From Desulfitobacterium metallireducens DSM 15288 (GTDB lineage Bacteria > Bacillota > Desulfitobacteriia > Desulfitobacteriales > Desulfitobacteriaceae): a stretch of 64,000 nucleotides of DNA. Shown piece after piece: positions 18,881-43,701 of the stretch; within the stretch, counting starts at the first letter, position 1, and every line of letters starts with the position of its first letter. The notes beneath the pieces were generated by a model. That model ran no database searches, was not told the origin of the DNA, and saw only the letters and a program-made list of their open reading frames with translations. The stretch spans positions 2,976,001 to 3,040,000 of the forward strand of contig NZ_CP007032.1 of assembly GCF_000231405.2 (NCBI RefSeq). The letters run 5' to 3'. A program made the translations under genes and the position numbers.

Positions 18881-18997
18881 ATTCAACGCCCCTTTATATC
18901 ACAGTCGAAGAGCCACGTCGCTCCGATCATAATATTATATTATCACACTTCTTGTTTTTGCTTGAAATAATTTTAAAAGCACTTTTTAACAGCAAAA

Positions 18998-19027
18998 AAG
19001 CCTTGAATCATCATTCCTTCAAGGCTT
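18998..19027 (-). terminator. terminator after gerB
   Basis: AAGCCTTGAA pairs with TTCAAGGCTT, followed on the minus strand by TTTTGC. The sequence just beyond resembles that beyond the tmRNA terminator (see findings). Confidence 0.75.
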
Positions 19028-19093
19028 TCGTTATATATTTCTACCTCATTCAAAGATTTGTTTGGGGAAAGTGAAACACACTTACCCAAACTA

Positions 19094-20200
19094 TTATTTA
19101 CTTTTTGGGGTTAATTTTTTTAACCCTAGCGCTGAAAAAAGAATTAAAGGAACTCCAAAATCTATGGGTACAGCAAAATACTTCCACAAATGTTCTCTTA
19201 AATTTAAAAACAAGACATCATCTTTACCTATAAGATAAGTAAGAATCATTATCATCAAACCAAAGGGAATAACAATATATGGGCTTTTCTTCTTTATTCC
19301 GGTGGTTTGCATGAAAGCTTTATAAGAACAATAAGAATAAATTCCTGCTTGAATCATTATGCTCCAATACCACAGCGCCACCATAAAGGATTCAAAACGG
19401 TGGAGATATTGAGTAATTTGAATAGACCTGACAAAATCCATACTGGGAATACGCATTATTGCGACGACCTGAGGTCCCATGACCATCAATTCTGCAACAA
19501 AATAGAAGATGAAGAAAAATCCCCCGATAAACAAACCTGAAGAGGCTGAAGCAAACGCTTTTTTGGGATTAGATACCATGGGTAGAATCATGGCTACGAG
19601 TAAGGGTGTTATCCCCACAAAAGTATCCGCCTCTATACTTGATTTAAGGACTGGCATTACCCCTAAGTCAAAAAAAGGCATAATCCTGTCCATGTTTATT
19701 TCAGCCAAAGAAGCCATAAAAACAAGGATAAAAAAGATTATACCAAATCCAAAAGCAAAAATGGCTGTTCTCGCAATGACTTCAGGTCCGTTCCATACTA
19801 AATAGAAAATGACAAAAACATGTAATGCTGCCACGACTAGAAAAGGTGTTTTCGGCAGCAAGAAACCCGTAAGATGTTGGATGTACATGGATATTGAACT
19901 TGAGGCATTCAAAAAAAAATACAGTGTAAGTATTAATCCTAAGACCTTTCCCAATAATCGACCCAGCAACTCAGAGCTATATTCCACGATTGTTTTATCC
20001 GGAAAATTTCGTCCGATATAAATCATTAAAAAAAGAAAGGGAAGTACAGTTAAAACACTGACAATACCACTGATCCACATATCATGGCCGACTTTCCTCG
20101 CCAAAATACCACTCGCATAATTAATGGTTGAAGGCCACATCGTGCATATCAAAAGATCTCTGAACTGATTGTTATTAATGACTTCCTTTCCTTTGATCAA
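19094..20200 (-). CDS. gerB: spore germination permease, GerAB family
   Basis: A 368-residue APC-type membrane protein with about ten helices, the B subunit of a GerA-type nutrient germinant receptor. TTG start at 20200 with AGGAGCAGG upstream. In Bacillus the B subunit binds the germinant and works with the A and C subunits in the spore inner membrane. The gene order here, A-C-B, is common in clostridia. It is the last gene of the operon, followed by a terminator. Confidence 0.88.
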   Translation of the reverse strand: MIKGKEVINNNQFRDLLICTMWPSTINYASGILARKVGHDMWISGIVSVLTVLPFLFLMIYIGRNFPDKTIVEYSSELLGRLLGKVLGLILTLYFFLNASSSISMYIQHLTGFLLPKTPFLVVAALHVFVIFYLVWNGPEVIARTAIFAFGFGIIFFILVFMASLAEINMDRIMPFFDLGVMPVLKSSIEADTFVGITPLLVAMILPMVSNPKKAFASASSGLFIGGFFFIFYFVAELMVMGPQVVAIMRIPSMDFVRSIQITQYLHRFESFMVALWYWSIMIQAGIYSYCSYKAFMQTTGIKKKSPYIVIPFGLMIMILTYLIGKDDVLFLNLREHLWKYFAVPIDFGVPLILFSALGLKKLTPKSK

Positions 20201-27718: not shown

Positions 27719-28267
27719 TTGAACGCAAAAATTTCAGAGTTCCGTGACGGTATATTTGCACTTAGAACAAGAAGGTTTGGAACAGTTGCAGAATTGATGA
27801 TTCAACATTTAATCAATGCTTCAAAAGGGAAGAATCAATTCCATGATCTTTATGATGAGGCTGAAGGAAAAAGAATTGAAGTTAAATTTTCGACTGTTAT
27901 GAAGGCCAACGACGCTAAAATTAATGATAAAAACATAATTGAACAATGCGCTAAAGCGACGCTAGCCAAAAGAGCAATGAGAACGGATGAAATCAAGGAA
28001 AACGACTTCGATTGTAATATTCAACAAGTTAAAAGAAAAGAATTTGACCTGCTTTATTATGGCTTATTCTTCGCTGATAAAATTGCAATATTTAAGATCG
28101 ACTCATCTGATATACTTAACTGCTTTGGCTACTCCGATTTCCAACATAAAGGTAACGAAGGTGAGGGTCAATTTCATCTAAACCCCTTATCGATTGATTA
28201 TCATTTGAATAACCACTTTGTAGAATGGCTAAGCTACGAAGATTTATATAATCTATTTACTCCCTAA
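27719..28267 (+). CDS. probable type II restriction endonuclease, PD-(D/E)XK fold
   Basis: A 182-residue protein with no close family that I can name. A conserved-looking nuclease core is visible: Glu25 in a helix, D43/D46 in FHDLYDEAEGK, then E54-V-K56 after a beta turn, matching the D...ExK pattern of PD-(D/E)XK enzymes. TTG start at 27719 with AAAGAGATG upstream. It is convergent with a DNA adenine methyltransferase and overlaps its 3' end by 15 bases, the typical context of a restriction partner. Recognition sequence unknown. Confidence 0.65.
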   Translation: MNAKISEFRDGIFALRTRRFGTVAELMIQHLINASKGKNQFHDLYDEAEGKRIEVKFSTVMKANDAKINDKNIIEQCAKATLAKRAMRTDEIKENDFDCNIQQVKRKEFDLLYYGLFFADKIAIFKIDSSDILNCFGYSDFQHKGNEGEGQFHLNPLSIDYHLNNHFVEWLSYEDLYNLFTP

Positions 28268-30286
28268 AAGAAATGGATTCGATTTGGATATCGATGTTTT
28301 GATAATTTGGTAATCTGATTCCGTTAGTCCAAATAACTTTGAGACTTCTGCATCAAGATCTTCGTATAGTTTACTCATTTCTGATGGATCTTTGATTTCT
28401 ACCCATTCGTCAACTTTCCGGATAATTTGCGACTGCAATTCAGCGCTTACAACCGGTATGGGTAAGCTTTCGAGATGTGCCCGAAGAATTTTAACCGATT
28501 TGAACTTATTATTAAAGAAATATTGAATTGTACTGGAATTTAAAATTGCCAGGATGTACTTAATGCCTATTCCCGGTATTCTAGGGATGAGGATATTAGC
28601 ACTATTTAACGTAAGCGTTTGATTATTATCATAGGCGAAAACTAAACGATTACAAATAAACCTATATATTAATTTTTCAGGAGCACGGTATAAATGGGTT
28701 GGAGCGACTTGTTGAAATCTTTCCGGTTCAAATCGGATGTAGTTGTTTGAAGGTACAAATTCATATTTAAAAATGTCGCTTCCTCTAAGAATTATTTCTG
28801 AACCTTCAGATTGAACCTTTGAAATATAGGTTGAATTGTCACCCGTTACAATTCCAAGTGCAAAATCAGCGTTATCCTTTAAGTAAGTAACCTGAACGGA
28901 TGATTCTATCTTTTTAATGAGTTCCATTTCCTCATCTGTTAAATCGAAGTACCAGTTCGTCCGATCTAAATCCCTCGATCGCTTTATCGTAAACGTTCTT
29001 TGATCCGTAACAACTTCCATTCCTTCGATACTAAAACCCGAGGGGATTTTTTCAAATACAAGGGTCATCGCTGGACACTGCACTCCGTCAAATATATTTT
29101 CCCAGTATCGAATTCGTTTTATATAGCTACTACCCAATAAATAGTCACGTATGGGTTGGTGAATCTTTACATTGAGCAAGGATTGGGGCAAAACAAAGCA
29201 TACAATACCGTTTTGAACTATCGTTTTTGAAGCATATTCTGTAAAAACACAAAAGGATTCCACTGTTTTAGCTTGGGATGCTTGATATCTTTCCTTTAAT
29301 ACCGTCTGCTCATCTTCGCTATAATTGAATCCCCATGGAGGATTACCTATAACAATATCGAAATCTAACGCCTCTTTGCCTATTAAAGCATCTTTACATT
29401 CAAAATTCTTATAAAGCAGCTCTATATTTTGGGTTCTACTGACGAGTGCCATATTTATTCTTGTTAGAGCGATACTCAGCGGACTAATATCAAAGCCATA
29501 TATTCCCTCTAGATTTTGGATATATTTATGGGCATACATTAAAAAATTCCCTGTACCACAGCAAGGATCGAGTAGTTTTGTATTTTTATGGATCGATTTA
29601 AGATTATCGACAGCATCTTTGACAACCGTTAAAGGAGTATAGTAAACGCCATTTGATTTACGTTCTCCGAGACTTTGCAAAGACATATAAAGCAAGCCTA
29701 AAAAATCCTGATCTTCCAAAAAACTAATAGGGATACATAAAGCGGGTTCTAATTCTCGAATTTTAACTTCGAGCTGAGAAACATTTGATAAAACATCATC
29801 AATCAACGCAGAGTAATCACCAAAAACCACTTTGTCTGTAATGTACTGGTGCAGCAAACAATTAGAGGAATCACACTCAAATGGAACAAGTTCACGGCTC
29901 AATAGAAGTTTTAAGGCATACTCAGCTAAAATGATTCGTTCATAACCCTCCGGTAAATTAATAGTGTTTATCTGAGAGGTGATTTTGTCTACGGCATCTA
30001 TCCCCTCTTTGCTTTGAATATATGTTTTAGGGATAAAGGCTCCCGAAACATAACTTTTGTTCCGACGACTTTTAAGCCTAGCCTCTTTTCCACTTTTTAT
30101 ATTATCTAATAATAATTCGATTTCATCCTTTGCGAAAAGTATTTCACGCCCAGCGGATTTTATAGGTTTGATTTTTTTGCCTTTAATCCAATTTCGTGCT
30201 GTAGCGGTTGATATTGATAATAACTTACTTACTTCTTCTAAGTTCATCAAATTATCCTTTGCCGAGAATAGCTCTAATTGCTTCAA
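28253..30286 (-). CDS. N6-adenine DNA methyltransferase with N-terminal HTH
   Basis: A 677-residue Eco57I/TaqI-like methyltransferase. Residues 14-55 form an excisionase/MerR-like helix-turn-helix (NLEEVSKLLSISTATARNWI). The SAM site DPCCGTGNF starts at residue 240, the catalytic NPPW motif is at 315-318, and the C-terminal half resembles the TaqI-type target-recognition domain. It should methylate adenine at the site cut by the convergently encoded nuclease. The HTH may let the enzyme control its own or its partner's promoter, replacing a separate C protein; this is inference. Confidence 0.85.
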   Translation of the reverse strand: MKQLELFSAKDNLMNLEEVSKLLSISTATARNWIKGKKIKPIKSAGREILFAKDEIELLLDNIKSGKEARLKSRRNKSYVSGAFIPKTYIQSKEGIDAVDKITSQINTINLPEGYERIILAEYALKLLLSRELVPFECDSSNCLLHQYITDKVVFGDYSALIDDVLSNVSQLEVKIRELEPALCIPISFLEDQDFLGLLYMSLQSLGERKSNGVYYTPLTVVKDAVDNLKSIHKNTKLLDPCCGTGNFLMYAHKYIQNLEGIYGFDISPLSIALTRINMALVSRTQNIELLYKNFECKDALIGKEALDFDIVIGNPPWGFNYSEDEQTVLKERYQASQAKTVESFCVFTEYASKTIVQNGIVCFVLPQSLLNVKIHQPIRDYLLGSSYIKRIRYWENIFDGVQCPAMTLVFEKIPSGFSIEGMEVVTDQRTFTIKRSRDLDRTNWYFDLTDEEMELIKKIESSVQVTYLKDNADFALGIVTGDNSTYISKVQSEGSEIILRGSDIFKYEFVPSNNYIRFEPERFQQVAPTHLYRAPEKLIYRFICNRLVFAYDNNQTLTLNSANILIPRIPGIGIKYILAILNSSTIQYFFNNKFKSVKILRAHLESLPIPVVSAELQSQIIRKVDEWVEIKDPSEMSKLYEDLDAEVSKLFGLTESDYQIIKTSISKSNPFLLGSK

Positions 30287-33877: not shown

Positions 33878-34431
33878 GTTTATTCTTAATATTATTAACT
33901 CTGTGCAATTTTATAAAACATGCCTAATCATGCTTGTTGACACAATACTTAGTATGCAGAAGCGAGGGGGCGTATCACTTTTTCAGCTAAACAATTTCGC
34001 AAAACTCCTATTCTTTTCACGCAATTGTCTATTTTTGCATAAAAATCCGCCCCTCCTAATAAAAAACTATCAGTCTGGGGAAACATTAAACACACATCAA
34101 TTTTAAATAAAATCCGTTAAAGCCTTTGATATCAATCTATTTCCGCTCTATCAAAGCAACACACTCGACGTGCTGTGTCTAGGGGTACATTTTATCGAGC
34201 GGGTTTATACTTTTTAACGATTCCTCAAACCTTTTAATTATTCTTATACTTTTAATTAAAGGTCGGATTTGCCCCCAAGGGGGGTGCATCTTTTAATAAT
34301 AAGGGTGTAAAAACAAAAAAGCGCACCGCTTAAAACGATGCCTCATTGGCCCTAATAAGCCGAAAAGCCCAGTATTAGTATTACTGGACTTTTTATGTTC
34401 TTTATTTTTCTCTTTAATTCGAGGGTTTGAT
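33878..34431. other. 554-base gene-poor region before the ssrA copy
   Basis: A short frame here overlaps the preceding gene and lacks coding character. The stretch is AT-rich with one terminator-type hairpin at 34363-34395 (AAAAGCCCAGTA paired with TACTGGACTTTTT), which is placed as a terminator for the minus-strand ssrA fragment. I see nothing else. Confidence 0.6.
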
Positions 34432-34617
34432 TGGTGGAGGCGAGGGGACTTGCACCCCTGTATCGAAGAGCCGCCACAAAAGCATCTACGCGTGTGTCTT
34501 CTGCTTAAGTTTCACCTCATAGTCTCCAGAAGACGGGATACGTCCGAGGATATCTCGATAATCTTAGCTAACAACTCCGAGAGTTTTCATTAGATCAGTC
34601 CTACTGTTTGACACCCT
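34432..34617 (-). repeat. partial ssrA copy (tmRNA 3' half), attachment-site scar
   Basis: About 186 bases that match the 3' half of the tmRNA gene at 43351-43538, with roughly one base in seven different by eye and a few short gaps. It keeps the CCA end, the T-arm (GGGG-TGCAAGT-CCCC) and the late pseudoknot region but lacks the tag frame and 5' half, so it cannot make tmRNA. Homology runs about 15 bases past the gene end (TTCGAGGGTTTG). Such copies mark the far end of elements that integrate in ssrA. Confidence 0.85.
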
Positions 34618-34671
34618 AAACAGATTATAATATTTAGATTCTAGGGATGATATAGCCCAACTGATTGGTTG

Positions 34672-36591
34672 TTATTTAGGCTCTTTCACCTTACTGTTCA
34701 TTATAGGTATTATAGTAGCTACTACCAGAGCTGCTAATATTATAAATGCCATTCCGTTAGAATTAGCAAACCCGCTTGGCTCTATTCCTTTTATAACACC
34801 TGATACTTGAAGTATTATGCCTATAAGTCCTATTATAGATCCACCAGCAACAAGTCCAGAAGATAAACTTATACCATTAGCAACTTTAACTTCTTTGTCC
34901 TGTTCAGATGCGGAAGTTCTTTCTACAAGGGAACGAATTAATGCACCGATGAGAATTATAGAAGTCGTCGAAATGGGTAAGTAAAATCCAATAGCAACTG
35001 TCATTATAGGAAGGTTTAGAAAGAAAAAAACAATTCCCATAACCACACCAAAAATAACCATGGCCCAAGGTAATTTTCCTGAGATTATACCAGCCGTTAA
35101 TGTTGCTATTAAGTTAGCTTGTGGTAGTGCGAATGGAACGTTATCTCCAGTCATGGCAAGTTGATTGGACAGCAATAATATAGTCCCCGTGACGACTGCA
35201 ACACCAACTACACCCGCTATGGCGAAGTATTTTTGCATTTCATTTTTGTCTCCGCCTATTATAAAGCCAACTTTTTGTGACTGACTGTAACCACCAGCTG
35301 TCGCTATAGCCGTAACAATAAATGTACCAAATAGAAGCAAAGATCTGTTACTTTCAGGATTTGTCCATCCCATGACAACGAATAAAAAGGTTACAATAAC
35401 TAAAGAAGATATTGTCATGCCCGATACAGGGAGGTTTGAGGTTCCTATAGTACCCGTTAAACGACCAGAAACAATAACAAATAGTAGCGATAAGACTAAT
35501 GACAACACTGAAACAGCTATTGCCATTAAAAAATTGCCACCAGAGATTAAGAAACCTGCAATAAAGCCTACTACTATACCACAAAGTAGTAATAATTTTG
35601 TAGCAGATGAACTTTCAGCATCATTTGTGGACTTAGCATTAAGGGTTTCTTTTATAGAAGAAATTATGGTAGGAATTAGCCTTATCGCACCAATTAAACC
35701 ACCGGAAAGCATCATACCGGCGCCGATATATTTTACATAACTACCAGCGATATGACTCACTTGCATAGCGCTTACAGTAACATCTGGATTATTCCATACG
35801 GTTATATCGCCTTTGGCAAGAGCTGTGAAGTAACCTATTAAAGGCAAAATACCGAAGTTAGCCAATATAGAACCAGCAAACATAATTAATGAAACTTCTA
35901 AACCCACTATGAATCCTATACCTAATAATAAAGGATTCACTTCAACTTGAAATCTCCACTTGTAAAACGATTCGTTCACATAGCTTATAACGTTATTCGC
36001 TACATTTAAAAATGGACTGGTTATAACTGTTATCACACCACCTATTCCGAACCCGATTCCCATGTACTTAAGAGATTCTCCAGCACCTTCTGAAGCCACA
36101 AGTGTTTCAGATATAGCCATTGACTCAGGGTATACTAATTTACCGTGTTCTTCAACGATTAAGTAATTATAAACCAGGGAAGCTATTGCCAAACCAAATA
36201 AGACCCCACCTACACCCACCACAAGAGTTTCCCAAAAAGAAACTGTCGAACCGATTAAAAGAATTGCGGGTAAAACGAAGATCATACCACTGGCAATGGA
36301 TTCACCACCACTAGACATACCTTGAAGTAGATTCTTCCCAAGAATACCTTTTTGTTTAGCAAATGCAGCTATTAGTGCTGAGCCAATGATAGAACCAGGT
36401 ATACCCGCTGCAACTGTAAGACCTGATTTCATACCTGAATAAGCGGTAGATGCTGCAAACAAAGCCGCCAAAATAATACCGATTATTAATACCGCAGCGT
36501 TTCCACCAGAATTTTTACCACTGGATATGTAAGGTACGTAGTCTTTACCAGCTATGCCGCCATATGCATCTTTAGATAACTTTTTATCCAT
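34672..36591 (-). CDS. OPT-family oligopeptide transporter
   Basis: A 639-residue membrane protein with about 14-16 hydrophobic segments. VPYISSGK near residue 20, then GMKSGLTVAAGIPGSIIG and the YPESMAISETLVA block near residue 155 are features of the bacterial OPT (oligopeptide transporter) family. It should import small peptides by proton symport. Next to it is a dipeptidase gene, which suggests uptake and hydrolysis of peptides as one function. RBS GAGGGTG. The codon use is AT-rich and differs from the glycolytic block. Confidence 0.88.
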   Translation of the reverse strand: MDKKLSKDAYGGIAGKDYVPYISSGKNSGGNAAVLIIGIILAALFAASTAYSGMKSGLTVAAGIPGSIIGSALIAAFAKQKGILGKNLLQGMSSGGESIASGMIFVLPAILLIGSTVSFWETLVVGVGGVLFGLAIASLVYNYLIVEEHGKLVYPESMAISETLVASEGAGESLKYMGIGFGIGGVITVITSPFLNVANNVISYVNESFYKWRFQVEVNPLLLGIGFIVGLEVSLIMFAGSILANFGILPLIGYFTALAKGDITVWNNPDVTVSAMQVSHIAGSYVKYIGAGMMLSGGLIGAIRLIPTIISSIKETLNAKSTNDAESSSATKLLLLCGIVVGFIAGFLISGGNFLMAIAVSVLSLVLSLLFVIVSGRLTGTIGTSNLPVSGMTISSLVIVTFLFVVMGWTNPESNRSLLLFGTFIVTAIATAGGYSQSQKVGFIIGGDKNEMQKYFAIAGVVGVAVVTGTILLLSNQLAMTGDNVPFALPQANLIATLTAGIISGKLPWAMVIFGVVMGIVFFFLNLPIMTVAIGFYLPISTTSIILIGALIRSLVERTSASEQDKEVKVANGISLSSGLVAGGSIIGLIGIILQVSGVIKGIEPSGFANSNGMAFIILAALVVATIIPIMNSKVKEPK

Positions 36592-36901
36592 AATTACACC
36601 CTCACACTATATTTCATTTTTTGTATTGTAACTCAGTTTCCAACAAAATATGTTGTTTAAGGTATTTAAAATAAAATGGCTATGTGCCTCAGTGCCCCTG
36701 CAATTGAAGGTCAATCAAGTCGCCGATGTGGCTGGATAATAAAACCTTTCTAAGAGTATAAAATATACAAGGTTTGCGAAAGTTCTAGAATAAAAAAATG
36801 AGTAAGGGATTTTCCCCTTACTCACACTTTTAAGGAACCAGTTTAATACTAGGAGTTCTACTGTTTAGCTCGACCATCATCGTAGAAAGTTCCATATAAA
36901 A
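36592..36901. other. intergenic region between pepD and the OPT gene
   Basis: 310 bases. It holds the pepD terminator at 36799-36824 and presumably the promoter of the transporter gene. Nothing else is evident. Confidence 0.55.
36799..36824 (-). terminator. terminator after pepD
   Basis: TGAGTAAGGG pairs with CCCTTACTCA (36815-36824); the minus strand continues TTTTTTTATTC, a clear T-run. Confidence 0.8.
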
Positions 36902-38365
36902 TCAATGTAAATTTTTTAATATTTCCAGTAAGTATTCCCACGTCCTTTGAACTGAAGAAATACTCATATGTTCATTAGGAGTGTGAACATCATATAGATT
37001 GGGTCCAAAGGAGATTGCATCCATTTCGCCAAACTTTTCTGCAAACAGTCCGCACTCAAGGCCAGCATGTATTGCCGTTATATGTGGTTTCTTTCCGTAC
37101 ATTTTTGCATATACATCTTCAAAAATTGTTCTTATTTTTGAAGTAGGATTATATGCCCATTCAGGATAAACAGATTCGGTAACGACAGTTCCGCCATTTA
37201 GTTTAGCGGTGACAACGAGTCGATTTAATAATTCATTCTTTAAACTCCTGACGGAACTTCTGATTGAGCTTATGAATTCTATCGAATCTTCAAGAGTAGA
37301 AACTACTCCGAGGTTCAAAGAGCTTTCTACTAAACCCTTAATATCCATGCTCATCGAAGTAACTCCATTTATAACTAAGTATAAGTAGTTAACTCCATTA
37401 TTCGTTGATTCTTTTGTAAGCATTTCTGGTGGCAGGGTAGGTAAAACTTCAAATTCCACTCTTACGTCAGGATCTTGTGTCCTCAATTCAGAGGTAAACA
37501 ATGCTTCACAATCAGATATTCTTTTCTCAACTAAAGCTTTATCCTCTGCTTTTACCATAATAACAGCATCTGTCTCACGTGGAATAGCATTACGCTTTGA
37601 TCCGCCGTTTAATGAACTGAGTCTAAAATCTATTTCAGATAATACAGACATAAGTATACGACCCATTAATTTATTCGTGTTTCCTCTTTCTTTATCTATT
37701 TCCATTCCAGAGTGTCCACCCTTTAGGCCTCTTATTTTAATTATATACGGCACTAGGTTTGCATCTACGGGTTCCCATGCTGCAGGAATTAGTGTTTTAG
37801 CTGTAACTCCACCAGCACAGCTAACTAATAGCGTACCCTCTTCTTCCGAGTCTATGTTAATAAGCGTTCTTCCTTCTATATTTTTAGGATCTAATGCCAT
37901 CGCTCCATCCATTCCTGTCTCTTCCGAGGTGGTAACAAGTAATTCTATAGCCGGATGTTGATATTCATTAGAAGCTAATATTGCTAATCCCATTGCAACC
38001 GCAATTCCGTTATCCGCTCCTAAAGTTGTGCCAGTTGCATATATCATGTCATCAATTACTCTTAACTTTAGTGGATCCTTAGTAAAATCATGCTCATTCC
38101 CTATATTTTTTTCGCATACCATATCCATATGTCCCTGCAAAACAACAGTAGGGCTATTCTCATATCCTGGTGTTGCCTTCTTTTTTATAACAACATTTAA
38201 TGCAGAATCCTGAACAAATTCTAAGCTATACTCCTTTGCGAAGGATACCAAATAATCGCTAACCTCTTTTTCATTTCCAGACCCTCTTGGAATCTGTGAT
38301 AGCTTTTCAAAGTATTTAAATACTTCAACTGGTTGTAGGTCTTTAAGCATCTCTAACATTTTCAT
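36902..38365 (-). CDS. pepD: aminoacyl-histidine dipeptidase (M20C, PepD)
   Basis: A 487-residue M20 metallopeptidase that hydrolyses Xaa-His and other dipeptides. Zinc ligands: H in LQGHMDMVCEK near residue 80, D in GADNGIAVAMG near 118, catalytic EE in TTSEETGMDGA near 148 and the C-terminal HTPNEHMSI. LINIDSEEEGTL is a PepD signature. I prefer the ATG at 38365, two codons inside the longest frame, because AAAGGA is better spaced. With the OPT transporter it forms a peptide-utilisation pair, though each has its own terminator or promoter region. Confidence 0.92.
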   Translation of the reverse strand: MKMLEMLKDLQPVEVFKYFEKLSQIPRGSGNEKEVSDYLVSFAKEYSLEFVQDSALNVVIKKKATPGYENSPTVVLQGHMDMVCEKNIGNEHDFTKDPLKLRVIDDMIYATGTTLGADNGIAVAMGLAILASNEYQHPAIELLVTTSEETGMDGAMALDPKNIEGRTLINIDSEEEGTLLVSCAGGVTAKTLIPAAWEPVDANLVPYIIKIRGLKGGHSGMEIDKERGNTNKLMGRILMSVLSEIDFRLSSLNGGSKRNAIPRETDAVIMVKAEDKALVEKRISDCEALFTSELRTQDPDVRVEFEVLPTLPPEMLTKESTNNGVNYLYLVINGVTSMSMDIKGLVESSLNLGVVSTLEDSIEFISSIRSSVRSLKNELLNRLVVTAKLNGGTVVTESVYPEWAYNPTSKIRTIFEDVYAKMYGKKPHITAIHAGLECGLFAEKFGEMDAISFGPNLYDVHTPNEHMSISSVQRTWEYLLEILKNLH

Positions 38366-38518
38366 TAGCATCCTTTCTTACAATTATTCATAAAATATTT
38401 GGAAATTAGATGTATATGTTATCATGTTCAAATTTACTATACATTAAAAAATTAATAAGTACCAATTTATGTATCTTCTCATACTTATGGTAATTAAAAT
38501 ATAAAAGTGACGGAAAAC

Positions 38519-38637
38519 AAGAGGTCTAGGTCTAGGTCTAGCTATAGCTAAAACGAAACCCGATTTAATTAAGGTTTTCTAGCCTAACTAGACCTCTCAG
38601 TAGTCAAAACAAAAGAGCGTTCAAAAAGAACGCTCTT
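38519..38637. terminator. hairpin cluster with tandem GTCTAG repeat
   Basis: GAGGTCTAG at 38520 is followed by two further GTCTAG units and pairs with CTAGACCTC at 38590-38598, a large stem-loop. Next to it is a tight terminator, AAGAGCGTTC (38613-38622) with GAACGCTCTT (38628-38637). Confidence 0.6.
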
Positions 38638-38650
38638 ACTCGTTATGTAT

Positions 38651-38686
38651 TGGTGGAGGTGAGGCACACCTATCCAAACCCTCGAC
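38651..38686. repeat. third short copy of the ssrA 3' end
   Basis: TGGTGGAGGTGAGG (38651-38664) is identical to the last 14 bases of the intact tmRNA gene (43351-43364). It is preceded by CGTTATGTAT, also found before the intact gene's end. Shortly after comes CAAACCCTCGA, the complement of the TCGAGGGTTTG that flanks the other two copies. It looks like a second attachment scar inside the island. Confidence 0.55.
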
Positions 38687-38762
38687 AACAAAATTCTTCA
38701 ATTTGTGGCATAACCTAAGGTTCTTAGAGTCATGCCACGTATGCCTGTTGTTTTTCTAGTAC

Positions 38763-41700
38763 TTATTTCCCAATTAACTGTTCAAGCTGCTGCTCAATGT
38801 CTTTACTGACAACAGCCTCTCCTCCGAATAGGGTCGCTCCGGTCAGTTTTCTGGTCTTTAGATAATTCATGACCTGATCGGACAATCTGCCATCCGATAG
38901 AATAATCGGAGAATTGTGATTTGCCGAATAGACACTTCCTGCCAGGGCATCTGGGAAGTTGTTGCCGGTGGCTATACAGACACTTCGCCCGGATAAGTTG
39001 AAGTATTGGGCTACCGCCAAAGAGGTTTCATAGCGGTCTGCTCCAGCGATTCTCACAATATTCAGATTGTCTAAAGAAGTGATCTGCGCTACTTGGCTTT
39101 CTACAGTTGCACCGATGACCCCTTCTCCTCCGATGATAAAGACTTTGGTGGGCTTAATTGCGGCAATCTCATTCTTGACCGAGTCACTGAGTCCGTCTTT
39201 TTGAACTAAAAGTATTGGGTACTGCATTTCTGCTTCAATACTACTAATGGATAAGGCGTCAGGATAGTTTTCACCATAGGCAAGCACAATCGGGGTTCCG
39301 GTCTTGACCTTCAATTGATCCGCTATTTTAACAGAAGTTTCATACCTGTCAGTTCCATCTAATCTGGCTATATTTGCAAAACCACTCGCTGTTACTTTAC
39401 CTTCCATAGCACCGCTAACGACGGACGTGCCACCTAGGATATAGACAGTTCCTGTCTGGTTCATATTATCCTTCATATAGTCCAATACCTTTTCTTGATC
39501 GGCTTCAGAGCTTCCAACCAGTAGGATTGGCGCATTAAGCTTGTAGGCCAATACACTTCCAGCTAAGGCATCCGGATAGTTATCGGCGGTAGCTAAGATG
39601 ACATTCGCAACTTTTCCTGTGTAGTTTTCTTTAGCGATGGCTAGCGCAGTATCGACTCTGCTCGAACCCGCAAGTCTTGTAACTCCAGAGGTGGTTTGAT
39701 TCATTTTAAAATCCCATTTGACGATATCCTGTTCCACAGAAATTGTCGGGCTTGTATAGTTGTTGTAACCATCTTTTGTGGCAACGATGTAGTAATCTGT
39801 AGTAGGGAATACCATGAAGCCATAGGCTCCTGAGTCATCACTTATCTGTGGATTTATATTATTATTGGGCTTAAATCCATCTATACCAGGCAATGGTACT
39901 ACTGTGTCAGGAGTTTTACCATTTGTATTGTTTCTTTCCGTATTGGCATAATACAAGGTTACATTTGCTCCTGCAACAGGCTTGCCTGTAGCTGCATCAA
40001 TGATGACTCCATAGGGGTCGATTAGGGTAGTGGTTAAGTTGACATTCCCGCTGCTGTCAATTTTAATCTCCATTGTTCCAATCGTAATCGTTTGTCCATT
40101 GTCTAAATTATACCTGATATTCAAGTGATTGTCCGTTCCCTTTGCTAGGTTCGTCACTTTTATTGTTCCATCCGCAGAAATTGTTATAGGCGAACCTGCT
40201 GCTGTTGCAAACGTCACTTTAGAAAGATCACTTAAAGAACTCATAGTTCCGTTAGGTTGTTTTAGCATTACAGTTTGAGCTTCATTCATGGAAACTGTAT
40301 AATTCCGATTACTATCAGTAGTTACTATAGCCGTCAGATTGGAAACCGGTGTACTGTTACCGTCAATTACACTGCCGGTAACTGTAGTTCCTCCAGTTGA
40401 TGAACTCCCTCCACCGCCATAGCCACCGTTGGTTGAGTTTGCCGTCAGAGTGAAGTTTATACCCGAGGTTGTTGTATTTGCTGTTACTGCCACACCTATC
40501 ACATTGGTACTAATATACCCAGTCTTGCTGGCAGTCACGGTATATCCCGTGCCTACCGGCACGTTTAATATCGTATAGATTCCATCCGAGGTTGTTGTTG
40601 TTGAATAAACACTTCCGGTTACAGTCACGTTGGCCCCGACGAGCGGTGTACCGTTTATATCCATTATAGTACCGCTGATTGCCCCTGGGGTTGTCGACGT
40701 GGCGGGAACTACCACGTTTCGCGCTAACCCGAAGTCATAGCCGCTCTTAGTTGCCGTAACCGTGTACGTTTGACCTGCACACAACGCTGCACTAATCGCG
40801 TAAGTTGCCCCACCATCTGATGTTGACGCGCCTGTAATGGTTACAGGATTACTCGCACTGTCCTTCAGCGTAAAGTCGCTTGCCACTAAGCCGGAAAGGG
40901 ATGGGCTTAACCCTACTGTGAATCCGGTGGTCGCTGGGCTACTCACTGTCAAAGCTTCGGGTATGGAATGGTATAATATTACTAATCCATTGTTATAATC
41001 TGCTATAGCAACATCGGGAGCACCGTCTGAGTTAATGTCGCCAATCGCAAGACCCTGGGGGTTATAGTGTGAGGCATAGGGAAGACTATAACGCGAGTAC
41101 GGCATCATTCCCCCATTACCATCTTGAAGGTAAAGGCTTAATGCGTCCCAGCCCCCATTCAAGGAAATAACATCCATTTTTCCGTCGGAATTGACATCTG
41201 CTACTTTAACCGATTCAGGGCAATCATATGCTGCATAATTAACCACCGGATTAAGAGTACCTTGACTATTCTGGTTGAAAGTACCGATAAACGATGTAGG
41301 CTGATTGCCACCGTGACTGACTATGATGTCGTTTAATTTATCATTATTTATATCCCCAATTGCAACTCCATGAGTGAGTATATTACTACCAACACTGGAG
41401 TATGCCGGTGAAGAAAATCCATTTGATTGTTGGTATAGTATCCCGATATTGGGGTCGGCGTACAATTGCCCACTCATTACAATTAAGTCGGTCAACCCAT
41501 CATTATTCACGTCACCGGCTTCTAACTGATCGTATCCCCCATGTTGTACGGAATATGTAATCGGCGTCCCCAACGTACCATCGCTTTTTTGGAACAAGAT
41601 GTCAACACTATTCGAACCCCAACCTATTCCCGCTACATCCATCAACCCATCATTATTAAAATCCCCTGTTTTTATGCTCTGCGAATTAGTTGTGCTATAG

Positions 41701-42116
41701 TTCACACCAGAATCAAGTCCGCCTGATTGGTTTTGGATGAAAACCTCAATATTTACACCTTTATTCCCAACTACTACATCCTTTTTACCATCATTATTCA
41801 GGTCACAAATATCAACAGAGGTTGGCACGCCGCTAACAGAATACTTAATTGGTGGATTAAGCCCTCCGGCGCTATTCTGTATGAAAACAAAAAGCTTATA
41901 ATCATTTACTGGATCAGAGTTAGATGATGTTGATGTTGTCATTACTACATCATTTTTTCCGTCTCCATTGACATCCCCTATCGCAACAGCCTCAGGGTAG
42001 GATCCTGTTTTATAGTTGATATATGGCTTAAAGATTTGTCCCTCTGAGGAGTAAGCAGTTTGTGGCAATACTAATAAAATTATGAACGCAAGAAATATTC
42101 CAATTTTAATTTTCAC
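38763..42116 (-). CDS. large surface protein: FG-GAP repeats, Ig/CarboxypepD-like domains, three CWB2 domains
   Basis: A 1117-residue secreted protein. After a signal peptide come about seven FG-GAP/VCBS-type repeats (residues ~35-390), each with a D-x-N-x-D-G loop (GDVNGDGKNDV, CDLNNDGKKDV, GDFNNDGLMDV and so on) that should bind calcium and form a beta-propeller. Then come Ig-like and carboxypeptidase-regulatory-like segments (GTPLVGANVTVTG, GKPVAGANVTL). The last 300 residues are three cell-wall-binding type 2 repeats (RLAGSSRVDTALAIA, RLDGTDRYETSV, RIAGADRYETSL), which attach to wall polymers. I chose GTG 42116 because GGAGGGG lies 7 bases upstream. Probably an adhesin or S-layer-like protein. 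Confidence 0.88.
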   Translation of the reverse strand: MKIKIGIFLAFIILLVLPQTAYSSEGQIFKPYINYKTGSYPEAVAIGDVNGDGKNDVVMTTSTSSNSDPVNDYKLFVFIQNSAGGLNPPIKYSVSGVPTSVDICDLNNDGKKDVVVGNKGVNIEVFIQNQSGGLDSGVNYSTTNSQSIKTGDFNNDGLMDVAGIGWGSNSVDILFQKSDGTLGTPITYSVQHGGYDQLEAGDVNNDGLTDLIVMSGQLYADPNIGILYQQSNGFSSPAYSSVGSNILTHGVAIGDINNDKLNDIIVSHGGNQPTSFIGTFNQNSQGTLNPVVNYAAYDCPESVKVADVNSDGKMDVISLNGGWDALSLYLQDGNGGMMPYSRYSLPYASHYNPQGLAIGDINSDGAPDVAIADYNNGLVILYHSIPEALTVSSPATTGFTVGLSPSLSGLVASDFTLKDSASNPVTITGASTSDGGATYAISAALCAGQTYTVTATKSGYDFGLARNVVVPATSTTPGAISGTIMDINGTPLVGANVTVTGSVYSTTTTSDGIYTILNVPVGTGYTVTASKTGYISTNVIGVAVTANTTTSGINFTLTANSTNGGYGGGGSSSTGGTTVTGSVIDGNSTPVSNLTAIVTTDSNRNYTVSMNEAQTVMLKQPNGTMSSLSDLSKVTFATAAGSPITISADGTIKVTNLAKGTDNHLNIRYNLDNGQTITIGTMEIKIDSSGNVNLTTTLIDPYGVIIDAATGKPVAGANVTLYYANTERNNTNGKTPDTVVPLPGIDGFKPNNNINPQISDDSGAYGFMVFPTTDYYIVATKDGYNNYTSPTISVEQDIVKWDFKMNQTTSGVTRLAGSSRVDTALAIAKENYTGKVANVILATADNYPDALAGSVLAYKLNAPILLVGSSEADQEKVLDYMKDNMNQTGTVYILGGTSVVSGAMEGKVTASGFANIARLDGTDRYETSVKIADQLKVKTGTPIVLAYGENYPDALSISSIEAEMQYPILLVQKDGLSDSVKNEIAAIKPTKVFIIGGEGVIGATVESQVAQITSLDNLNIVRIAGADRYETSLAVAQYFNLSGRSVCIATGNNFPDALAGSVYSANHNSPIILSDGRLSDQVMNYLKTRKLTGATLFGGEAVVSKDIEQQLEQLIGK

Positions 42117-42142
42117 ATTATTCCCCTCCAATTTTTGTTAAA

Positions 42143-42583
42143 TCATTTATAATAATTTTCAATCTCATCTGGTTCAAATGCTTTCCTGAAATCCTTCAAG
42201 ACCAGCATGACAGAATTGGAGAAAGAAAAGCATTGGGAATAAACAGACAAAAACTGAATATTAAGAACACGGCGGTTAAAAGATAAGGGAAGATAGCCTA
42301 CGGTATGTTCAAAATGTAAAGGTCTATTATCAAAAGTGGTTTCTAATTTATTCGCTGCTACTTCCAATCGAAAAGTATTTACCAAACTCCCTGCATCTAA
42401 GTCAAGGAAACGAGCATAAGAATGCAAAAATCCTACCGTGTAAACCCCACCAAGAAGAACACAGTAGTCTCCTTCTTCCGAAGCTTGCAGGTATTTACTA
42501 CGAATTTTAGTAATTTCCTCAACCTTTCAACTCCGATCCTTTAGCTTTTCTGGCCTTACGTAACTGTGGACAACTTTATCCAT
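42143..42583 (-). pseudogene. RodZ-like HTH protein relic
   Basis: ATG at 42583 with GGGAGGTTGAA upstream begins a former gene. Two frame changes and a stop break the first 25 codons: LRKARKAKGSELK lies in one frame, then VEEITKIRSKYLQASEEGDY continues in the original frame, followed by VYTVGFLHSYARFLDLDAG. These are the HTH_25 blocks of RodZ-type cell-shape proteins. The rest, to the stop at 42143, has no recognisable domain. It is a decayed gene inside the ssrA island. Confidence 0.65.
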
Positions 42584-43270
42584 ATTTCAACCTCCCTGTC
42601 AGTTCAGTAGCAACGGTCTGTCGAAGTATTTGGTTAAACAGGCAGCATTATAACGAACACCTAATTTAAAAAGAGAAAACAAAAAGAACTCCATACCAGA
42701 GATACTAGTCCCGGCAGGGGCTCTAATTTCTTCTCCGGCAACCTGGCGATCATGGCAGTGTCTTTCCTGCTGTAGACCCATGGCTTTGCGTCACACCTTT
42801 TCAGATGTTTTGCCTTTATCAGAACAATTTTTTAAATTAAATTGCAATAGATGAATATTATACAAAGATAGGTAAAACTATGTTATGATGTCGTATTTTG
42901 GAAGAACCCTCTTGTGAGATATTCTACCATATTTGTCTATAACTTTAAAGGTTTTTTAGTACCTATATTTGAACATGAGCCCCGTATGGATAACTGATCA
43001 TAAAGCTTATTACAGATTGTTCACATGCTTCCATGCCCCATTTATTTGCACAGCTCCAGAGATGAACAACAAAATTTTATCTCATGATGCTCCATTATTA
43101 ATCATCTCATTTCTGGTAGATATACATTTTCTTAGCCAACTAGATTAATCGCGAAAGCCTTAATGTTGTAAATAGGTTTAATTATCTTGTCACAGCCACT
43201 ATTAATACCCATCAGATATGGCAAAATTTATCCTTTTTTGCAAAGCCAGACGGTGATTCATTTCAAAAAT
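42584..43270. other. gene-poor AT-rich part of the ssrA island
   Basis: About 690 bases with no convincing gene. A 60-codon frame (42599-42781, minus) has no ribosome site I trust and no family resemblance. The rest is AT-rich with many stops in all frames, consistent with decayed DNA. Confidence 0.55.
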
Positions 43271-43276
43271 GCAAAA

Positions 43277-43313
43277 AAGCCTTAAGCGTACAACTTCATG
43301 TACCTCAAGGCTT
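43277..43313 (-). terminator. tmRNA terminator
   Basis: AAGCCTTAAGCGTAC (43277-43291) pairs with GTACCTCAAGGCTT (43300-43313), ending in TTTTTTGC on the minus strand, 38 bases after the tmRNA 3' end. Confidence 0.75.
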
Positions 43314-43350
43314 TCGTTATGTATCTCCACCTAATATTCGAGGGTTTGCA

Positions 43351-43701
43351 TGGTGGAGGTGAGGGGACTTGCACCCCTGTATCGAAGAGCTGCCACAAAA
43401 GCTTCTACGCGTGTAGTCTTCTCTTTAAGTTTCGCCTCTTAGTCTCCAGAAGACAGGATCCATCCAAGGCTATCTCGATAATCTTAGCTAATGACTCCGA
43501 GAATTGCCATTAGAGCAGTCCTACTATTTTGACACCCTGGCCCTTCATCGTAGGCGCAGAAGGCAGGATGCTAGCGGCAATTAAGCTGCTAGAGCGTAAT
43601 TATTGTTGTTAACTATTAAGGTCCACCGTTTAACGAGACCAGGTGGAATCTCGACGCGCAACTCTTGCCACCGCTTCCCCGAGCGAGTCTAAAACACCCC
43701 C
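43351..43701 (-). ncRNA. ssrA: transfer-messenger RNA
   Basis: About 351 nt, one-piece tmRNA. The 5' GGGGGTG pairs with the 3' CACCTCC (one G-U), followed by A and an encoded CCA at 43351. The T-arm is GGGG-TGCAAGT-CCCC. The tag frame ends at the TAA at 43581-43583 and encodes ...NNNNYALAA; the resume codon is either AAC or the preceding GTT. The ALAA ending is the usual protease signal. SmpB, its partner in rescuing stalled ribosomes, is encoded 7 kb away on the same strand. Confidence 0.95.

Follow-up and report, generated by a model that had tools for sequence, protein, structure and literature searches.

The SCC elements of Staphylococcus, with their CcrAB enzymes, are serine-recombinase islands that accumulate one behind another at a single gene, at its 3' end, and some of them lack a recombinase. 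Sites used by large serine recombinases have arms that are symmetric about a central dinucleotide and lie 10 to 12 nt away from it, whereas the arms of tyrosine recombinase core sites flank a spacer of 6 to 8 bp. In Dehalococcoides, tandem islands at the tmRNA gene ssrA are found with DsiB, a CcrB-like serine recombinase, and 15 ssrA islands have no integration module (McMurdie 2011, PMC3146451). The Islander approach to islands in tDNA requires a tyrosine integrase and treats the tyrosine family as the only one known to target tDNA (PMC4383910).

Here, we analyze the ssrA locus of Desulfitobacterium metallireducens DSM 15288 in a window of 64,000 nt (G000:C1:2976001-3040000) of the 3.18-Mb single-contig genome. 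The closest known system is that of the Dehalococcoides ssrA islands (ssrA-GIs), which this locus resembles in the way it works and from which it differs in the crossover and the missing recombinase. (i) In both, tandem islands lie downstream of ssrA and are bounded by ssrA and by short repeats of its 3' end (PMC3146451), and many islands have no integration module (cis-mobilizable elements that grow by accretion); here, E1, E2, and E3 have accreted. (ii) Large serine recombinases are part of the Dehalococcoides ssrA-GIs, whereas here they were seen beside ssrA only in the relatives G016 and G064, and the DsiB-like integration module next to attL is missing. (iii) The crossover is at a TC dinucleotide 11 to 12 nt from the 3' end, compared with the T loop (333/334) in Dehalococcoides. 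(iv) The phylum is different, several arm classes occur here, and E1 carries a surface protein in place of reductive dehalogenases. With SCC, to which ssrA islands have been compared (PMC3146451), the locus shares tandem accumulation at a 3' end and members without recombinase; it differs in that the target is an RNA gene and that no such recombinase is present in this genome. The islands of Islander likewise leave a regenerated tmRNA gene and a 3' fragment farther on, but the 186-nt fragment of this locus is decayed and does not mark where one single island ends. The array is therefore presented as a variant of known genome traffic and not as a new kind of system; in the open-access papers searched, we found no description of such arrays in the Desulfitobacteriaceae.

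Results

The features of the locus are compiled in Table 1. An earlier, sequence-only reading of this DNA had recognized a full tmRNA gene, in agreement with Infernal; despite the high Infernal score, ARAGORN reported no tmRNA at this position. The gene smpB and its neighbors upstream of ssrA are kept in relatives, and the TetR-ABC transporter group upstream of ssrA in the window is also found in G016 and G018, indicating that the intact ssrA is at its ancestral place. Downstream of the CCA, the DNA of relatives differs, but it falls into a limited set of recurring types. The terminator of ssrA sits within island E1. Many Desulfosporosinus-type genomes (G006, G014, G020, G021, G023, G024, G025, and G033) carry a second complete tmRNA gene at another locus, often with B-class islands behind it. 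In the incomplete genome G067, the only ssrA copy found (L163 2235-2468, G067:C156) has lost some 160 nt from its middle, with positions 1-125 joined to 288-351.

Table 1. Features of the ssrA locus, in positions of the window
Feature	Position	Strand	Basis or content
Intact ssrA (tmRNA)	43351..43701	-	Infernal RF00023, 153.6 bits
Island E1, 4.7 kb	38661..43362	-	Both boundaries located
attL of E1	43310..43362	-	A-class left end, directly after ssrA in relatives
c-di-GMP-I riboswitch in E1	42734..42824	-	Rfam RF01051, 82.6 bits
Surface protein of E1	38763..42131	-	Pfam: FG-GAP repeats, CarboxypepD_reg, three CW_binding_2
attR of E1	38651..38687	-	Exact 13-mer of host ssrA end plus perfect GAGGGTTTGGATA; A-class right ends of relatives
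Unit E2	34618..38660	-	Left end ATACATAACGAGTAAGAGCG with terminator; dipeptidase and OPT transporter
Dipeptidase of E2, beta-Ala-His type	36902-38371		Pfam
OPT transporter of E2	34672-36591		Pfam
Relic, decayed 3' half of older ssrA	34432..34617	-	186 nt; BLAST, Rfam, and column comparison
Left end of older island E3	34120..34443	-	TC, A-class arm, terminator module that recurs in other ssrA islands
Decayed A-class boundary (about 19.07 kb)	18960..19099	-	Probable right end of E3, then another A-type left end

The flank behind the intact gene (flank A) also follows ssrA directly in G004, G061, G063, G028, G036, and G025 and also lies far downstream in G016, G021, G017, G022, and G032. The flank behind the relic, past its first 17 nt (flank B), occurs after ssrA in G016, after second ssrA copies, and in arrays elsewhere. 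Both flanks are the left ends of islands. Where an A-type left end is displaced, 12 nt of ssrA (TCGCCTCCRCCA) stand in front of it as a scrap, and ahead of the scrap comes the arm in mirror image (CGAGGGTTTGGATA ... TC GCCTCCACCA ATCAAACCCTCGAAT); the same layout was seen for class C (GGTACACCTAACAT) and class E (AAAACCCTGTATGT). When right ends of the A, C, and E classes were compared with 72 left flanks, the match peaked at offset 0 about TC, and the right ends of the window, G025, G067, and G021 paired best with a left flank of their own genome; several right-type sites (e.g., L185, L176, L093, L186, and L121) had no such partner among the 72. B-class ends, as read from the sequences, have arms of 18 to 20 bp centered on CA at the CCA terminus. 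Several island boundaries per genome were present in G021, G017, and G022. Relatives have arrays of the same kind, with several arm classes and, in some cases, serine recombinases beside ssrA. An array with B-class ends was also observed in G014 (L119 3427-17861), around two-component, transporter, and hydrolase genes and with no ssrA scraps at that place.

The first unit is E1. At its attL, the crossover TC (43362-43361) is followed by ACCTCCACCA, which completes ssrA, and by the A-class left arm CAAACCCTCGA. Its attR is composed of TCGAGGGTTTGGATAGGTGTGCC-TC-ACCTCCACCA, and the TC-ACCTCCACCA segment common to both sites includes an A that is found in this ssrA alone. The direct repeat TCACCTCCACCA bounds the island (43362..43351 and 38662..38651); an exact copy of the host ssrA end, CTCACCTCCACCA, lies at 38663..38651 behind TCGAGGGTTTGGATAGGTGTGCC, and upstream of the second repeat lies the mirror image of the E1 left end. 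The attP rebuilt from both ends has perfect 11-bp inverted arms, 12 nt on each side of TC, and the best match of the right end among the 72 left flanks is the left end of E1 itself. G025 has an A-class island at its own ssrA with the same end gene and 76% DNA identity through attR, and this homologous right end independently confirms the boundary at 38661; in G025 the right end is followed by a B-class end, unlike in the window. The circle junction of E1 is predicted to read TCGAGGGTTTG...TC...CAAACCCTCGA, and the empty site is predicted as CCACCA-ATACATAACGAG. E1 contains no recombinase, and its cargo consists of the riboswitch and one surface protein. E1 is complete at both ends and, in our reading, is the latest island of the array. 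The sequence-only reading had proposed island DNA at the 3' end of ssrA, which is supported here; it had taken the 9 kb between the two ssrA copies for one island, but the attR of E1 divides this segment into at least two units.

The left end that begins beyond the attR of E1 is a different one and includes a terminator (ATACATAACGAGTAAGAGCGTTC), and no mirror-image right end of E2 was found within the window. Similarity of the E2 OPT gene to Desulfosporosinus-type OPT genes ends at the gene end. We tried the OPT homologues of Desulfosporosinus-type genomes (87% identical) as a guide to the right end of E2; they do not lie beside ssrA and share no downstream DNA, so they do not reveal the missing end. 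The relic begins 54 nt beyond the OPT gene and has behind it TC, GCCTCCACCA, and an A-class arm, from which it follows that it would have been a whole ssrA at the time of E3 entry. The decayed boundary near 19 kb (65 bp at 75%, E 1e-6) is the probable right end of E3; its segment 19040-19099 matches the rebuilt E1 attP at 33 of 60 positions, modestly above chance given a shuffle maximum of 31. Inside E3, positions 28253-30286 encode a DNA methyltransferase of the Eco57I/TaqI type that has an HTH at its N terminus.

The relic extends from about position 165 of ssrA to its CCA end and is the sole other ssrA-like place in the whole genome (E = 1e-68, whole-genome BLAST). The two copies have 88.8% BLAST identity over 188 aligned columns; 33 of the 188 columns differ when gaps are included, so that the earlier estimate of about one different base in seven for this 186-base copy was fair. 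Its Rfam score of 39.9 bits is below the 47-bit cut-off. The relic breaks 17 of the 159 columns that are invariant in the nearest genera, compared with 0 to 4 in working genes. Relative to the other six genes of the clade, lone departures amount to 17 columns in the relic and 2 in the intact gene, and the branch of the relic in the tree has a length of 0.14 to 0.15 against a median near 0.04. Because of the broken invariant columns and the long branch, we read it as a decaying ssrA, one that apparently belonged to this or a near lineage and has lost its function. In the tree it falls among the ssrA genes of this genome, G012/G016/G004/G018, and G002/G010; a half gene of 190 nt is too weak to pick its sister, and other placements are formally possible. 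The clade placement and the column comparison give no support to a half from a distant host, and the suggestion that the island had brought its own foreign 3' half is not supported, since the relic falls in the clade of the host ssrA and breaks the invariant columns. We agree with the sequence-only reading that this is no fresh attachment-site duplication.

The 5' half of the relic is absent from the rest of the genome. Decayed partial copies of ssrA also occur in other relatives, with breaks at position 107, 128, 236, 243, 286, or 302; no integration site in mid-tmRNA shared among these copies was found, and their many breakpoints make position 165 unlikely as an attachment site. That TTCGAGGGTTTG flanks both copies in the window, as previously noticed, is correct, but the homology does not continue past the gene as had been supposed: the flanks diverge beyond some 17 nt, and the 12-mer that they have in common is an attP arm, belonging to one class of islands that many relatives carry after ssrA.

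No tyrosine integrase is encoded in the window, into which none of the 10 PF00589 matches of the genome falls, and the large serine recombinase domain PF07508 (ccr-type or other) has no match in the whole genome, in line with the earlier description of an island without integrase. Among relatives, G016 has an N-terminally truncated large serine recombinase ORF just inside a B-class island at ssrA, and in G064 two full-length large serine recombinases lie beside an ssrA 3' end (L172 226-9563, G064:C174) on a contig whose end is phage-like (tail-like, holin-like, and amidase-like ORFs). Full-length homologues also occur in G035 and G024. In none of the genomes examined did we find an A-class recombinase, so the enzyme of E1 has to be deduced. 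The att arms of the E1 class match the layout of large serine recombinase sites rather than that of tyrosine core sites; from this geometry and from the neighbors of the other classes we infer that the A-class enzyme would be a large serine recombinase. At two loci (L166 2970-3100, G023:C74; L176 10380-10640, G024:C4), an ssrA 3' end runs directly into a gene for a large serine recombinase, with the junction at the EESRSISEN codons, as though attP were part of the recombinase gene.

Discussion

We consider it likely that site-specific islands have built up at the 3' end of ssrA and now form a tandem array there, together with a decaying relic of that gene. The boundaries, the symmetry of the arms, the homologous ends in relatives, and the decay are read directly from the DNA; to these we add by deduction the enzyme type of the A arm class, mobilization in trans, and a deletion. 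Islands would enter by serine-recombinase-type exchange at the dinucleotide TC (CCCC-TC-RCCTCCACCA). The right half of the island attP would rebuild the last 10 nt of ssrA and bring a new terminator, so that the tmRNA would stay intact, and every island would leave a 12-nt scrap of ssrA at its far end. Since E1 encodes no recombinase, its movement presumably depended on an enzyme provided in trans; the islands either lost their own integration enzyme or never had one. The relic would be an older ssrA, with E3 already in place behind it, whose 5' half was lost and whose remainder is decaying. One deletion could have removed the right end from E2 and, with it, the 5' half from the older ssrA; as it would explain the two missing parts together, it appears to be the simplest account of both losses.

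For the relic alone, a second ssrA (with islands) that arose by tandem duplication or was gained laterally, the older copy then losing its 5' half, is a serious possibility that we place slightly below an even chance. Complete or decayed extra copies are common in the family, and an E2 without right end beside a truncated relic is what a deletion would leave; however, in none of the genomes examined are two complete ssrA genes adjacent, the extra copies being at other loci. The 9 kb could also be one tyrosine-integrase island that entered mid-ssrA (about position 165), brought a new 3' half, displaced the old one to 34432-34617, and then lost its integrase. The copy does reach the 3' end, in the right orientation and on the correct side, and at its 5' edge there is a small palindrome, CTGTTT-AGGGTGTC-AAACAG, of a kind that tyrosine core sites can show. 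A 3' fragment is thus present at the far end, in decayed form and preceded by an unrelated break and an internal attR. Against this reading, a complete E1 with its own attR lies within the 9 kb. Moreover, an insertion at this point of the tmRNA is seen in no other relative, the intact gene is not consistently more foreign in its 3' half than in its 5' half, and the acceptor pair U6-A67 is matched within the intact gene, all of which makes such an island improbable. We also rejected the idea that a distant donor had supplied the 3' half of the intact gene, since the distances of the 5' and 3' halves showed no consistent excess.

Construction of the array by ssrA-targeting Tn7-like transposons instead of serine recombinases seems very unlikely to us. 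Directly downstream of ssrA, G012 (L063 1200-9238, G012:C1) does encode a TnsB-like rve/Mu-C protein, a TniB/TnsC-like ATPase, and two TniQ proteins. The right ends of the A, C, and E classes, however, consist of the 12-nt scrap and exactly centered arms, with no 5-bp target duplication, and no transposase genes were recognized by eye in the A- and B-class islands with listed ORFs. The G012 element also holds other cargo genes and is apparently a case of Tn7-like use of the ssrA end.

The tandem array of serine-recombinase-type islands, our preferred reading, has several consequences. (i) Catalogues of tDNA islands that rely on tyrosine integrases miss or misread such arrays, as the first reading of this locus did. 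(ii) The class-specific palindromic ends permit islands without recombinase to be delimited exactly. (iii) The ends of the arm classes are candidate attP sites for new serine integrases. (iv) A gene central to ribosome rescue would have its 3' end rebuilt by successive mobile elements. For the Desulfitobacteriaceae as a whole, we lean somewhat toward the view that the last 12 nt of ssrA serve as a docking site for several unrelated large serine recombinase specificities (A, C, and E at TC and B at CA, a few bases farther along), and possibly for a Tn7-like element too. Most islands would lack a recombinase and each would carry its own ssrA terminator, amounting to an SCC-like cassette system on the tmRNA gene in bacteria other than Dehalococcoides.
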